IMG/VR virus record: IMGVR_UViG_3300042429_000404
Location: 1-45,459 of that record
Length of the DNA: 45,459 nucleotides
Strand: one strand, 5' to 3'
DNA from: a virus
Shown here: one piece after another, positions 3,653-45,459 of the stretch
Layout of the letters: every line of letters begins with the position of its first letter
Position numbering within the stretch: position 1 is the first letter of the stretch
Made by a program: the position numbers and the translations under genes
Notes under the pieces: model-generated
Told to the model about the DNA's origin: nothing
Seen by the model: only the letters and a program-made list of their open reading frames with translations
Databases searched by the model: none

Positions 3653-3690
3653 ATAGATCCCTAGCTCAGAGAGGTAAGCTAGGGATCTAT
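3653..3690. terminator. Perfect 14-bp hairpin after HTH gene
   Basis: ATAGATCCCTAGCT (3653-3666) pairs perfectly with AGCTAGGGATCTAT (3677-3690). There is an A-run on the 5' side (3647-3653) but no T-run on the 3' side. It would therefore act as an intrinsic terminator only for leftward transcription. For rightward transcription it may be an mRNA stabiliser or attenuator in front of the ribosome binding site AAAGGAG at 3694-3700. Confidence 0.6.
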
Positions 3691-3705
3691 CCGAAAGGAG
3701 ATACC

Positions 3706-3807
3706 ATGATCAAGAACCACCCCGATCATGCAACAATCATAACAGCACAGAAAGGAATATCCACATGGCACGCAGTATATTGCCCCAGAGGATCCAAGAG
3801 CATCTAA
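3706..3807 (+). CDS. Possible 33-aa leader peptide
   Basis: ATG 3706 has an excellent ribosome binding site (AAAGGAG, spacing 5) directly after the perfect hairpin. It encodes 33 residues ending in RGSKSI. It overlaps the first 43 bases of the next gene in another frame, so it could act as a leader peptide coupling translation of the 78-aa gene rather than as a functional protein. No family is recognised. The case rests only on the ribosome binding site and position. Confidence 0.4.
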   Translation: MIKNHPDHATIITAQKGISTWHAVYCPRGSKSI

Positions 3808-8306: not shown

Positions 8307-8933
8307 ATGAGTGAATTAAATGAGAACCTACCAAGTGTCGATGACCTACTTGCAGGTGGTGGCTCCAAGTCACTATCCTTCAAGGACTTCAAGGTCGGAG
8401 ATTCTTATGAAGGAACCATCGCCGGACTACGAACTGTACAGGTTCGCAACTACGACGACCCTACCAAGCTAGAGTTCTGGGATGACGGTAAGCCCAAGCT
8501 TCAGATCGAAGTTACTCTAGACACCGATTACAAAGATCCATCTGACGATGAAGACACTGGCGAGCGCCGTGTGTTTTTGTTTGGACAGAAGCTAACCGCT
8601 GCAAAAGAAGAACTAAAGCGCAAGGGCTTCACCAAGCTAGAGATCGGATCCGTATTCAAGATCACCTTGACCGGCACAAAGCCAGCCAAGAACCCTCGCT
8701 ACAATGACGTGAAGCTTTACGGCATTGAGCTAACACGAGGAACATCTAACCCTGCAGTTGACGCCTTACTATCGTCTGGCGCGACTGAAGTAAAAGGTGC
8801 TAAAATAGAAAAGCTGACACCAAAGCAGGCGGGTATCGCAAATACTTTGCAGTCTAATGGTTTTGATGCAGCTGAAATTGCAGAAAACTTAGGAGTTAGT
8901 GTCGAGGCAGTAAACGCCTCCCTAACCTTCTAA
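8307..8933 (+). CDS. OB-fold ssDNA-binding-like protein, 208 aa
   Basis: ATG 8307 follows AAGGAAAC. The segment FKVGDSYEGTIAGLRTVQVR, then a PKLQIEVTLDTD strand and RRVFLFGQ, has the strand pattern of the OB-fold ssDNA-binding-like proteins found next to replication genes in many actinophages. The C-terminal 45 residues carry a helix-turn-helix-like segment (GFDAAEIAENLGVSVEAVNA). Its place between the nuclease and the primase-helicase supports a ssDNA-binding or recombination-mediator role. The acidic SSB tail of cellular proteins is absent. Confidence 0.85.
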   Translation: MSELNENLPSVDDLLAGGGSKSLSFKDFKVGDSYEGTIAGLRTVQVRNYDDPTKLEFWDDGKPKLQIEVTLDTDYKDPSDDEDTGERRVFLFGQKLTAAKEELKRKGFTKLEIGSVFKITLTGTKPAKNPRYNDVKLYGIELTRGTSNPAVDALLSSGATEVKGAKIEKLTPKQAGIANTLQSNGFDAAEIAENLGVSVEAVNASLTF

Positions 8934-8939
8934 CAAAAT

Positions 8940-8987
8940 GTGTGACGGGCTTCGTCCTTTCCCTCCTTTCAACGAGGCCCGTCACAC
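8940..8987 (+). promoter_or_regulatory. Hairpin with double anti-Shine-Dalgarno loop
   Basis: GTGTGACGGGCTTCG (8940-8954) pairs with CGAGGCCCGTCACAC (8973-8987): 15 pairs including one wobble. The 18-nt loop (8955-8972) contains TCCTTTC twice (8955-8961 and 8964-8970). Each copy is perfectly complementary to GAAAGGA (8994-9000), the ribosome binding site of the primase-helicase. Loop-to-ribosome-binding-site pairing would form a pseudoknot and block translation. There is no T-run, so it is not a standard terminator. Confidence 0.7.
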
Positions 8988-9005
8988 CCTACCGAAAGGA
9001 TTATT

Positions 9006-11492
9006 ATGGACTCACCATCCCAGTTCAAGGAGCTTCTTTACCGGCTTGGTCGCACTGACGAAGACGCTGTAACTATTTGCTATCAGTCACCAGCTCAACG
9101 CTTTACAGCGAAGACGATCAAGGTTGACTTAGTTGACTCGGTTATCAATGCACTTGATGACTTAGGTAACAACATATGGTTTGAGATCAACCCAACATCA
9201 GTAACCGGTAGAGGAACTGCACAAGACGTCACTAGACTTGCAGCTTTCTATATCGACATAGATTACAAAGATGGTGGTGCTGGATCCGCAAAGAACGCTA
9301 AGCAGTTTATGGACATGCTCACCTCACTGATTGGAGTTGGCCCTAGCGCAATTGTTTTTTCTGGACATGGCATTCAGCCATACTGGGCCATTGACATCGA
9401 AGAGGAATACGACTTTGGGTTAGCGCAAGGCGTACTAAACCGATGGGGAGTCTTCTGTAAGTTCTTGGGTGGAACGATGGACACCAGCCTTGACTCCGTG
9501 TTTGACCTACCAAGGATCTTCCGTGTACCATCCTCACAGAACATGAAAGATCCGCAAAACCCAGTCAGGGTAAGCGCACTGTTCCCTAAGGATTGGCGTC
9601 CGGTCTCTATAAACGAGATCAACGAGATCCTTATTGATCACGGCATCACAAACGAGCACAGCCTACCTGAGAGCTATGATCCAGTAAGCACTTCGGACAA
9701 GTGGCAGTATGGTGCTAATGACTGCCAGTTTACCCCTACCCTTTATGCTGGCATTAGACCCACTAATGGCATACCAAAGAGCAGGCACGGCTGGTTGTTA
9801 CAACAACTAGTATTGATTCATTCTGCACATCGAAACGCTTGTATCACACCAGACACTAAAGAAGATCTGATTCAGCGTGCAGGTGAGAGGTTTGAGTACT
9901 TCTTGACTCAAGGCTTGTCTAGGCCAATGAACCAAGGCGAGATTGCATCAGCGTCTCAGTGGGCCGTTGCGAAAGTAGAAACCTTTACTGATGAAAAGCT
10001 TCGCAATGAGCTAAGACAACACCAGCACTCGGATTTTTTGTTAGGCGACCCAACCAGCGTCCTTGGGGAGCCATCAGCAAACGTTGAGCGTTCCGAGGAG
10101 GAGCTAGCGCTTCTCTACGAGAGCACTTACGGAACTTATGGACGCACTGATGCTGCTAACGCTAGACGCTTAGTGTATTTCTCAGAGGGAAGATTTAAGT
10201 ATGTTCCTGATGTCGGATGGTACTTCTGGGATGGTGGACGATACACTTTTGATAAAGATAAGTCGATCATGCAGATGGCAATTGATGCAGCTCAGTTTGT
10301 TGAGCAGACTCAAATTTCAGGTGATCAGCTTAAATGGGCTCAAGGATCATCAAACAAAGAAAGGATAGTAAATGCAATCACACTTGCGGGGACCGATCCA
10401 GAGGTATTGGTACAGGCTATTGAACTTGATTCGCAGGCAAACGACCTATGTACTCCAAACGGCATTGTTAATCTCCAGACTGGCGAAATTAGAACGGCTA
10501 TCAAAGGTCTTGACCTCAATACACGTCAAACTACAGTTACCCCTAAGGAACTTGCCACACCGATCTGGGATACTTTCCTCAGAGAAGTTATCCAAGAAGA
10601 AGATCGAATTAACTATCTGCAAGAGTTGCTCGGAGCTTCTTTGTTTGGAGACGCAAGGTACCACGTGCTTCCTGTGCTCGCTGGATCCGGAGCTAACGGA
10701 AAATCCACGCTTTTAGATGTAGTAGCCGGGATACTTGGAGACTACTCGGCATCGATGCCTGAAAACTTCTTGCTTGACACTAACTCAAGTACTCACCCAA
10801 CTGAGATCGCCCGCCTTCGTGGTATTCGATTTGCTATGGCATCTGAGACAAGACCTGATGGCAAGTTCAACGAGTCTCGCGTAAAGATGCTTACTGGTGG
10901 CGACATGCTTTCTGCACGCTTTATGAATAAGAACTTTTTTGACTTTAAGCCAACCCATACATTGTTCTTAGCCGTAAACCACTTACCTGCTGTTAAGTCC
11001 GGTGGTGATGGGTTCTGGAGAAGACTTCGTAAGATGGACTTTAGGATCACTATTCCTAAGGAGCGCCAGAAAGAAAACTTTGCTCAGCTGATGATAGAGA
11101 CTGAAGGTGCTGGCATTCTTGATTGGATAGTTAAGGGAGCTGTACGTGTCACGGTGCAAGGATTCAACGAACCAGACAGCGTTCGCCTATCAACCCTTGA
11201 GTACCGCCATGAAGAAGACCACATTGCCAAGTTCCTTGATGAGCGTGTCGTGTCTGCTTCTAACGCTAGCGCCACAAAGACTGCCGTCTTTAACGCCTAT
11301 AGAGATTGGTGTGATGACAATGGTGAGCGTCCTATTACTCAGAATGCCCTTAACCGGGAGGTCCGTTCTCGTATGAACGTTCCAGAGGTAGAATTAATGG
11401 GTATCAGAATGTTCAGTGGCATCGAGCTATTGACACTAAACCCAACGCCTAAAGACATGGCGGGAGAACAAAAAGATGAGTACTGGCGGTGA
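9006..11492 (+). CDS. AEP primase-polymerase fused to D5-type SF3 helicase
   Basis: The 828-aa protein has an N-terminal archaeo-eukaryotic primase core with catalytic FYIDIDYK (D84, D86) and SGHG (H121). A D5_N-like linker follows, and then a superfamily 3 helicase: Walker A GSGANGKST near 560-568, Walker B region MASETRP near 610, and sensor FLAVNHLP near 655. Such proteins prime and unwind phage DNA, and some also polymerise. No separate DNA polymerase was recognised, so this protein either polymerises or hands over to the host enzyme. Translation is probably controlled by the hairpin just upstream. Confidence 0.96.
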   Translation: MDSPSQFKELLYRLGRTDEDAVTICYQSPAQRFTAKTIKVDLVDSVINALDDLGNNIWFEINPTSVTGRGTAQDVTRLAAFYIDIDYKDGGAGSAKNAKQFMDMLTSLIGVGPSAIVFSGHGIQPYWAIDIEEEYDFGLAQGVLNRWGVFCKFLGGTMDTSLDSVFDLPRIFRVPSSQNMKDPQNPVRVSALFPKDWRPVSINEINEILIDHGITNEHSLPESYDPVSTSDKWQYGANDCQFTPTLYAGIRPTNGIPKSRHGWLLQQLVLIHSAHRNACITPDTKEDLIQRAGERFEYFLTQGLSRPMNQGEIASASQWAVAKVETFTDEKLRNELRQHQHSDFLLGDPTSVLGEPSANVERSEEELALLYESTYGTYGRTDAANARRLVYFSEGRFKYVPDVGWYFWDGGRYTFDKDKSIMQMAIDAAQFVEQTQISGDQLKWAQGSSNKERIVNAITLAGTDPEVLVQAIELDSQANDLCTPNGIVNLQTGEIRTAIKGLDLNTRQTTVTPKELATPIWDTFLREVIQEEDRINYLQELLGASLFGDARYHVLPVLAGSGANGKSTLLDVVAGILGDYSASMPENFLLDTNSSTHPTEIARLRGIRFAMASETRPDGKFNESRVKMLTGGDMLSARFMNKNFFDFKPTHTLFLAVNHLPAVKSGGDGFWRRLRKMDFRITIPKERQKENFAQLMIETEGAGILDWIVKGAVRVTVQGFNEPDSVRLSTLEYRHEEDHIAKFLDERVVSASNASATKTAVFNAYRDWCDDNGERPITQNALNREVRSRMNVPEVELMGIRMFSGIELLTLNPTPKDMAGEQKDEYWR

Positions 11493-29090: not shown

Positions 29091-29104
29091 GAAGCGAATA
29101 ACTG

Positions 29105-29148
29105 CCCGTAGGGATCAGGCCCCCGTCTCACCTGATCCCTACGGGTTT
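29105..29148 (+). terminator. Strong hairpin after capsid gene
   Basis: A perfect 15-bp stem (29105-29119 with 29131-29145, CCCGTAGGGATCAGG and its complement) has an 11-base loop and only three following T residues. It is probably a leaky terminator or a 3' stabiliser that raises capsid mRNA over the downstream genes. Confidence 0.8.
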
Positions 29149-45146: not shown

Positions 45147-45312
45147 GCAAGGTAGCTTGACTGGCAGACACCGGGGTTCAAGTCCCCGGCAAGCACGTGT
45201 GCCGAACAAATCAGTAGGCATCCATCGGGAATGAAACCCGGTTATCAAACGAGCTGGCAAACACCAGCGCTAACCCTGCAAGCCTATCCCCCTAGGCTTG
45301 CAGGGTTTTTTA
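45147..45312 (+). ncRNA. Structured noncoding segment with tRNA-elbow-like fold
   Basis: No ORF is visible here, but helices are dense. GCTTG (45155-45159) pairs with CAAGC (45190-45194), enclosing ACTGGCAGACA (D-loop-like, with GG) and a perfect T-arm: CCGGGG-TTCAAGT-CCCCGG (45171-45189). There is no anticodon arm and no CCA. Downstream are CGGG-AATGAAA-CCCG (45226-45240), GCTGG-CAAACA-CCAGC (45253-45268) and the terminator. An alternative pairing CGGCA (45187-45191)/TGCCG (45200-45204) excludes the T-arm, so two conformations are possible. A stable tRNA-mimic RNA or an mRNA 3' element is inferred. Confidence 0.55.
45272..45311 (+). terminator. Strong Rho-independent terminator
   Basis: A perfect 15-bp stem AACCCTGCAAGCCTA (45272-45286) / TAGGCTTGCAGGGTT (45293-45307) has a 6-base loop and continues into a T-run to 45311. 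It shares its core with the terminator at 1209-1249. It closes the P1 unit before the left-end promoter cassette P2. Confidence 0.95.
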
Positions 45313-45459
45313 TGCCCGGCGCAGAAACAGGGGACGAATGGAATGATGATGATGCGAGCGCAATGGATTTATAGCACCCCCTGTTTGTCTAGTATTATTG
45401 TTCTTGTAGCCACTTGGCTACTCAACCAAAGGAGCAAACCAAAATGACAGCAACTGCTA
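45313..45459. repeat. Right copy of 147-bp terminal direct repeat
   Basis: This block equals bases 1-147 except for G at 45333 (A at 21). It includes the P2 promoter, leader hairpin and ribosome binding site. Confidence 0.9.
45444..45459 (+). CDS. Start of 136-aa early gene, cut by window end
   Basis: The first five codons (MTATA) of the gene found complete at 132-542, repeated because of the terminal overlap. Not a separate gene. Confidence 0.85.

Follow-up and report, generated by a model that had tools for sequence, protein, structure and literature searches.

An anti-Shine-Dalgarno hairpin loop before a phage primase-helicase gene: a candidate pseudoknot that may lower translation

Introduction

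Pseudoknots between a loop and a Shine-Dalgarno (SD) sequence have mostly been described in metabolite riboswitches and in operators that bind proteins. As proposed for the locus described here, the translational pseudoknot riboswitches (SAM-V, translational SAM-II and the preQ1 classes) form an H-type pseudoknot within the 5' leader and thereby cover the SD. In one of them, SAM-V, the strand following the 5' arm of P1 becomes the third strand of a triplex in the major groove of P2, and the SD is occluded (PMC6061858). In the operator of T4 gene 32, a pseudoknot 5' of the SD of a replication gene controls the translation of that gene; binding of gp32 nucleates at the pseudoknot, and an unstructured part holds the SD (PMC535899).

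Comparable layouts have been described outside these systems. In the ESAS/SAS elements of cluster K mycobacteriophages, which are found in non-structural genes, an SD-like sequence is immediately preceded by an inverted repeat of about 17 bp, as at our locus; their authors argued against RNA hairpins or RNA pairing (PMC3203893). The B11/6C small RNA (RF01066) likewise carries a hairpin loop rich in pyrimidines, through which it pairs with purine tracts at ribosome binding sites (RBSs) (PMC12395582).

Here we analyse an environmental virus record of 45,459 bases (referred to as the window, at its full length), in which a strong hairpin stands between two genes of the same operon and presents a loop complementary to the SD of the downstream primase-helicase gene.

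Results

The hairpin begins 6 nt after the stop codon of the upstream gene. The nearest named relatives of the primase-helicase are found in mycobacteriophages (34–36% identity), many of which we take to belong to cluster K, and the terminase of the window is closest to those of Arthrobacter phages (46%). The host is probably an actinobacterium. Named phages contain no similar DNA over 8.3–11.5 kb, and the method used found no prophage carrying this primase-helicase in bacterial genomes. Coordinates of the features are collected in Table 1.

Table 1. Features of the primase-helicase leader and its flanking genes, with the evidence for each
Feature	Position	Strand	Evidence or remark
Upstream gene, same operon, 208 aa, phrog_1911, function unknown	8307–8933	+	ORF, PHROG; cluster K homologue
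5' arm of stem S1 (GUGUGACGGGCUUCGU)	8940–8955	+	folding; 16/16 pairs kept in 11 sequences
5' copy UCCUUUC	8955–8961	+	not conserved as such: UCCUUUU in L003/L018, absent in L014
L1 of proposed pseudoknot (CCUUUCCC)	8956–8963	+	UUUCC kept in L014, L054, L274, L057
Proposed Hoogsteen third strand CUUUCC	8957–8962	+	enrichment test; triplex inferred
Anti-SD UCCUUUC, proposed 5' strand of helix S2	8964–8970	+	kept in every primase leader read
L2, single unpaired A between S2 and S1	8971	+	UA in L014
3' arm of stem S1 (ACGAGGCCCGUCACAC)	8972–8987	+	folding; pairs kept in relatives
L3 linker CCUACC	8988–8993	+	sequence variable; 6–8 nt in clade, 12 nt in L014
Shine-Dalgarno GAAAGGA, proposed 3' strand of S2	8994–9000	+	invariant in relatives
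Primase-helicase gene, 828 aa, phrog_2478, D5_N	9006–11492	+	ORF, PHROG, domain match

RNA folding of positions 8930–9030 gives a minimum free energy of -34.5 kcal/mol (z = -4.8), a stability equalled by none of 200 shuffles. A preliminary description of this DNA had reported a hairpin before the primase-helicase with a loop complementary to GAAAGGA, and this hairpin is present with small corrections only: the stem has 16 pairs (one of them U.G) and the loop 16 nt (8956–8971, CCUUUCCCUCCUUUCA), in place of 15 pairs and 18 nt. The loop region holds two copies of TCCTTTC, the first T of the 5' copy being the closing base of the stem, and their ends lie 33 and 24 bases before the SD, in agreement with the spacing given earlier. 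The two tandem copies had also been called a surprising coincidence. Shuffles that keep the pyrimidine-rich composition of the loop contain at least one TCCTTTC in 6% of cases and at least two in 0.05%; the single match is thus weak and the double match moderate, and within one genome the complementarity is suggestive rather than proof.

The strong evidence for the loop is comparative rather than a chance match in a single genome. The leader type of the window recurs in ten further viral contigs, giving 11 leaders and seven distinct sequences in the alignment, and all 16 pairs can form in every one of them. Pairs 12 and 13 each occur as UA, UG and CG, pair 4 as UA and UG, and pair 6 as AU and GU. 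The loop varies at a single position, which lies in L1, while the L3 linker varies in both sequence and length. Formal covariation counts in this close set do not exceed those of shuffles, since most columns are fixed among close relatives.

Every departure from Watson-Crick pairing in the 11 leaders is a G.U on the + strand, and A.C is never seen. Selection on the DNA would be expected to leave A.C about as often as G.U, and selection on RNA of the opposite strand to leave A.C in place of G.U; the pattern therefore points to RNA of the + strand as the selected form. This bears directly on the possibility of a DNA-level element, either a hairpin at a replication origin or an operator-like inverted repeat of the kind proposed for the ESAS of cluster K. 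The site does adjoin a primase gene, a 17-bp inverted repeat directly follows the homologue of the upstream gene in the cluster K phage Milly, and DNA-binding sites are what the ESAS authors favoured (PMC3203893). Besides the absence of A.C, GC skew does not change at 8.9 kb and none of the strong hairpins of the genome provides a second site with the same arms, and we regard a DNA-level role as very improbable.

A second, more distant type of primase leader, common to contigs L014, L015, L016 and L019, is more informative. The primases of this clade are 64–71% identical to that of the window (about 70%), and their leader carries an 11-bp stem (GGGGGGCUAGG/CCUAGCCCCCC) whose sequence is unrelated to the window stem. 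Its loop ACGUUUCCUCCUUUCUA nevertheless retains UUUCCUCCUUUC, and GAAAGGA follows after 12 nt. L014 has a second GAAAGG closer to the AUG, which may be the working SD. Because the stem sequence is free while the loop core is kept, selection on the anti-SD loop is well supported by this comparison, which covers the only two independent types of primase leader found. The SD is invariant in all relatives found, so covariation between loop and SD is not visible. The comparison of related phages thus supports the earlier proposal in part, in that the stem is kept by paired changes and the complementarity and the SD are retained despite a wholly different stem in L014; among relatives of 64–94% identity, none keeps the gene and loses the complementarity. 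In the far more distant primases of cluster K (about 35% identity), a hairpin of the window type is lacking directly before the gene.

The same turnover of the stem weighs on the idea of a plain structural hairpin, that is a stabiliser of the mRNA, a processing site or a weak attenuator between genes, in which the loop sequence would be incidental. Such hairpins do occur before SDs or between genes elsewhere in the window (for example 1445–1467, 3653–3690 and 29104–29146), and in the L014 clade the stem is followed by the terminator-like AUUUUCUU. A loop core conserved through complete replacement of the stem is hard to reconcile with an incidental loop, and the window clade has no U-tract, so this explanation appears improbable. 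An intrinsic terminator in particular finds no U-tract directly after the stem in the window (CCTACC) or its clade, AUUUUCUU being confined to the L014 clade.

Some other hairpins and repeats of the window were recorded in passing. The 14-bp hairpin at 3653–3690 ends two bases before the SD GAAAGGAG of the gene starting at 3705 (region 3692–3707), and its loop CAGAGAGGTA is itself SD-like rather than anti-SD. The 16-bp hairpin at 29104–29146, which separates the major capsid gene from the gene after it, has the loop CCCCCGTCTCA, in which GTCTC complements GAGAC in the following SD region (ATAGGAGAC) over 5 bp only. Repeated leader units GGGAACGAATGGAA(C/T)GATGATGATGCG... are found at 1–130, 610–770, 1270–1480 and 45290–45459; both at the left end and near the right end they come after terminator-like hairpins, and two of the units have GTAGCCACTTGGCTAC in common, placed before an SD AAAGGAGCAAACC.

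Each of nine related contigs holds a single copy of CCTCCTTTC, and in every leader read that copy lies in the loop of this hairpin. We considered whether the loop could act in trans in the manner of B11/6C, as part of a processed leader or 3' UTR fragment that pairs with the SDs of other phage or host genes. The C-rich hairpin loop of B11 does target guanine tracts beside RBSs (PMC12395582), and GAAAGGA SDs also precede other genes of the window (before 3705 and 3765). Yet in both primase clades the hairpin stands 6–12 nt before an exactly complementary SD, and the element is present in one copy per genome with no sign of a promoter or terminator of its own; action in trans consequently strikes us as quite unlikely.

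Alternatively, the loop may be an operator for a protein: a phage or host RNA-binding protein would read the pyrimidine loop and control translation of the primase or stability of its mRNA, with the complementarity to the SD secondary. An invariant loop on a stem of variable sequence is the usual pattern of a protein operator, and conservation extends beyond the anti-SD part to L1. Phage replication proteins repress their own mRNAs, T4 gp32 being an example (PMC535899), and the control loci described below likewise carry pyrimidine-rich loops on strong hairpins before SDs. An operator would leave unexplained both the 16S-like CCUCCUUUC and the exact complementarity of the conserved core to the conserved SD; moreover, no candidate protein was identified. 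We consider this explanation unlikely, less so than the other alternatives.

Our preferred reading, to which we give somewhat better than an even chance, is that the hairpin is a cis-acting H-type pseudoknot that sequesters the SD and lowers translation of the primase-helicase. The 16-bp stem S1 would present the loop so that UCCUUUC (8964–8970) pairs with the SD (8994–9000), giving a pseudoknot with S1 of 16 bp, L1 of 8 nt, S2 of 7 bp, L2 of 1 nt and L3 of 6–8 nt. Formation of S2 would conceal the SD from the 30S subunit, and output of the primase would stay below, or lag behind, that of the upstream gene in the operon they share. We infer both the formation of S2 in vivo and the repression; relief could come from competition by the 30S subunit, from a phage or host protein, or from an RNA.

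The anatomy fits an H-type pseudoknot in that both primase clades place the anti-SD 1–2 nt from the 3' arm and share an L1 of 8 nt and an S2 of 7 bp. Across a 16-bp A-form stem the span is about 40 Å with little rotation left over. A linker of 6 nt reaches about 36–42 Å and is marginal; linkers of 7–8 nt reach further and could span the distance, though taken as a whole an L3 of 6–8 nt is marginal for 16 bp. The 8-nt L1 is ample, as is the 12-nt linker of L014. Modelled in this way, the geometry is possible but taut, and fraying of one terminal pair would relieve the strain. The S2 duplex (-7.4 kcal/mol) is weaker than the pairing of the SD with the 16S tail (-9.6 kcal/mol). Without base triples or a helper, repression would therefore be partial, with translation damped rather than shut off.

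The tandem arrangement itself, which the preliminary description had emphasised, did not hold up as a conserved feature: the 5' copy is broken in L003 and L018 (UCCUUUU) and absent in L014, and as a functional unit the pair is further contradicted by its absence in L054. Nor could the 5' copy supply the strand of S2, since an H-type pseudoknot built on that pairing would lack an L1 loop. The pattern that persists is UUUCC, then 0–2 nt, then UCCUUUC, forming a mirror repeat (C)UUUCC..CCUUUC, which in the window reads CUUUCC-CU-CCUUUC (8957–8970). From these comparisons the 5' copy is better read as one half of the mirror repeat. The 3' half is the Watson-Crick partner of the SD. In an H-type pseudoknot the 5' half matches a Hoogsteen third strand in both sequence and polarity, given that a parallel pyrimidine strand 5'-CUUUCC-3' is the Hoogsteen partner of 5'-GAAAGG-3' under the rules of triplex formation.

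We hypothesize that S2 is reinforced by such a triplex. L1 would leave the S1 junction and run up the major groove of S2 parallel to the SD strand, its UUUCC contributing U.A-U and C+.G-C triples in the register C8957.G8994, U8958.A8995, U8959.A8996, U8960.A8997, C8961.G8998 and C8962.G8999. This arrangement would give a reason for conserving both halves of the mirror repeat. In its favour, UUUCC is retained in L014, in L054 and L279, in L274 and in L057. UUUCC precedes the anti-SD in three of eight hairpin families and in five of 80 non-hairpin matches (p = 0.023), a modest enrichment among matches not selected for UUUCC, in a test devised after the triplex idea. The rule is not absolute, as L043, a homologue of L054, has UUUGC in place of UUUCC; in L003 and L018 the one base change in L1 would break one triple of the proposed register. 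One pattern scan required UUUCC, so that its matches are not independent evidence for retention of this motif.

Pattern scans of IMG/VR recovered the same layout before unrelated phage genes. L054, L043 and L279 have in common the hairpin GTGGGGGGTCGGGG-loop-CCCCGGCCCCCCAC before a homologous gene of 91–96 aa; the sequence from hairpin to start codon in L279 differs from that of L054 and L043, and in L054 the small gene is followed by genes for a PD-(D/E)XK nuclease and a DnaB-like helicase. In L274 the layout stands after a gene for an SMC/RecF-like ATPase, and L057 shows it with a shorter stem. Because these scans required a following SD, they could detect only copies placed before one. When 257 Gb of bacterial genomes were scanned with a similar pattern, none of the 111 unique matches was a convincing leader. 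Among the matches with strong hairpins, L315 and L346 resemble CCTTT repeats more than leaders, and L357 lacks a start codon just after GAAAGGA. The contrast between IMG/VR and bacterial genomes is qualitative, as the two patterns are not quite the same and bacterial genomes consist mostly of non-phage DNA.

As a control, a permuted 9-mer in IMG/VR yielded strong hairpins before SDs at a comparable rate, which indicates that pyrimidine loops are not rare. No general enrichment of anti-SD hairpins before phage SDs could accordingly be shown; the apparent excess in one comparison came mostly from motif-selected loci, many CCTCCTTTC matches look like SDs of divergent genes, and the position of the anti-SD within the loop did not differ significantly from the control (p = 0.28). 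We therefore claim no general class, and the firm case for the element is the primase leader only.

Discussion

Taken as a whole, the interpretation of this hairpin as a brake on the primase-helicase is probably right in outline and wrong in its tandem detail, with cis action and repression being what we infer from comparison of the leaders. If so, a pseudoknot with no known ligand, kept in environmental phages through complete replacement of its stem, would give phages a simple, reusable means of dosing replication proteins. Its short motif lends itself to scanning and to tests with compensatory reporters. It also offers a concrete RNA hypothesis with which the start-associated inverted repeats of actinobacteriophages, so far unexplained, can be compared.

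A broader and more tentative proposal, which we think doubtful at present, is that the element belongs to a phage RNA family in which a mirror-repeat loop (CUUUCC-n-CCUUUC) clamps a downstream SD by Watson-Crick pairing together with a parallel pyrimidine triplex in the major groove, acting as a portable, stem-independent brake before unrelated phage genes. If true, the purine tract of the SD would be the centre of a triple helix, and the C+.G-C triples would make the brake sensitive to pH and Mg2+.

An Rfam search of the window found no family at its gathering score, including SAM-II, SAM-V and preQ1; the highest of the weak scores, for a microRNA family on the minus strand, fell far below the cut-off, and this match was discarded. 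RF01066 scored 21.7 bits against a gathering score of 47. B11/6C acts in trans through C runs, and the window has no run of six C. In Mycobacterium phage Milly (L407 25993–26062, about 45992–46061 of the phage), the ESAS repeat lies directly after the homologue of the upstream gene and is followed by the SAS. Its arms, GAGGCGGGCCGGTGGCG and CGTCACCGGCCCGCTTC, can pair into a long RNA hairpin, the loop of which, TGGTTTTGGGAC, is not anti-SD.

By mechanism, the element most closely resembles the pseudoknot riboswitches. It differs from them in having no known metabolite pocket, in that the whole SD would be the second helix, and in a long stem free in sequence. By anatomy and position it resembles the ESAS, although the window lacks the SAS consensus GGGATAGGAGCCC, having ACCGAAAGGATTATTATG before the start codon, and has no 17-bp arms repeated across the genome (none among its strong hairpins); unlike the window loop, the ESAS loops seen are not anti-SD. 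In contrast to T4 gene 32, the SD of the primase-helicase is itself the proposed pairing partner, and in this pairing of a loop with an RBS the element resembles B11/6C.
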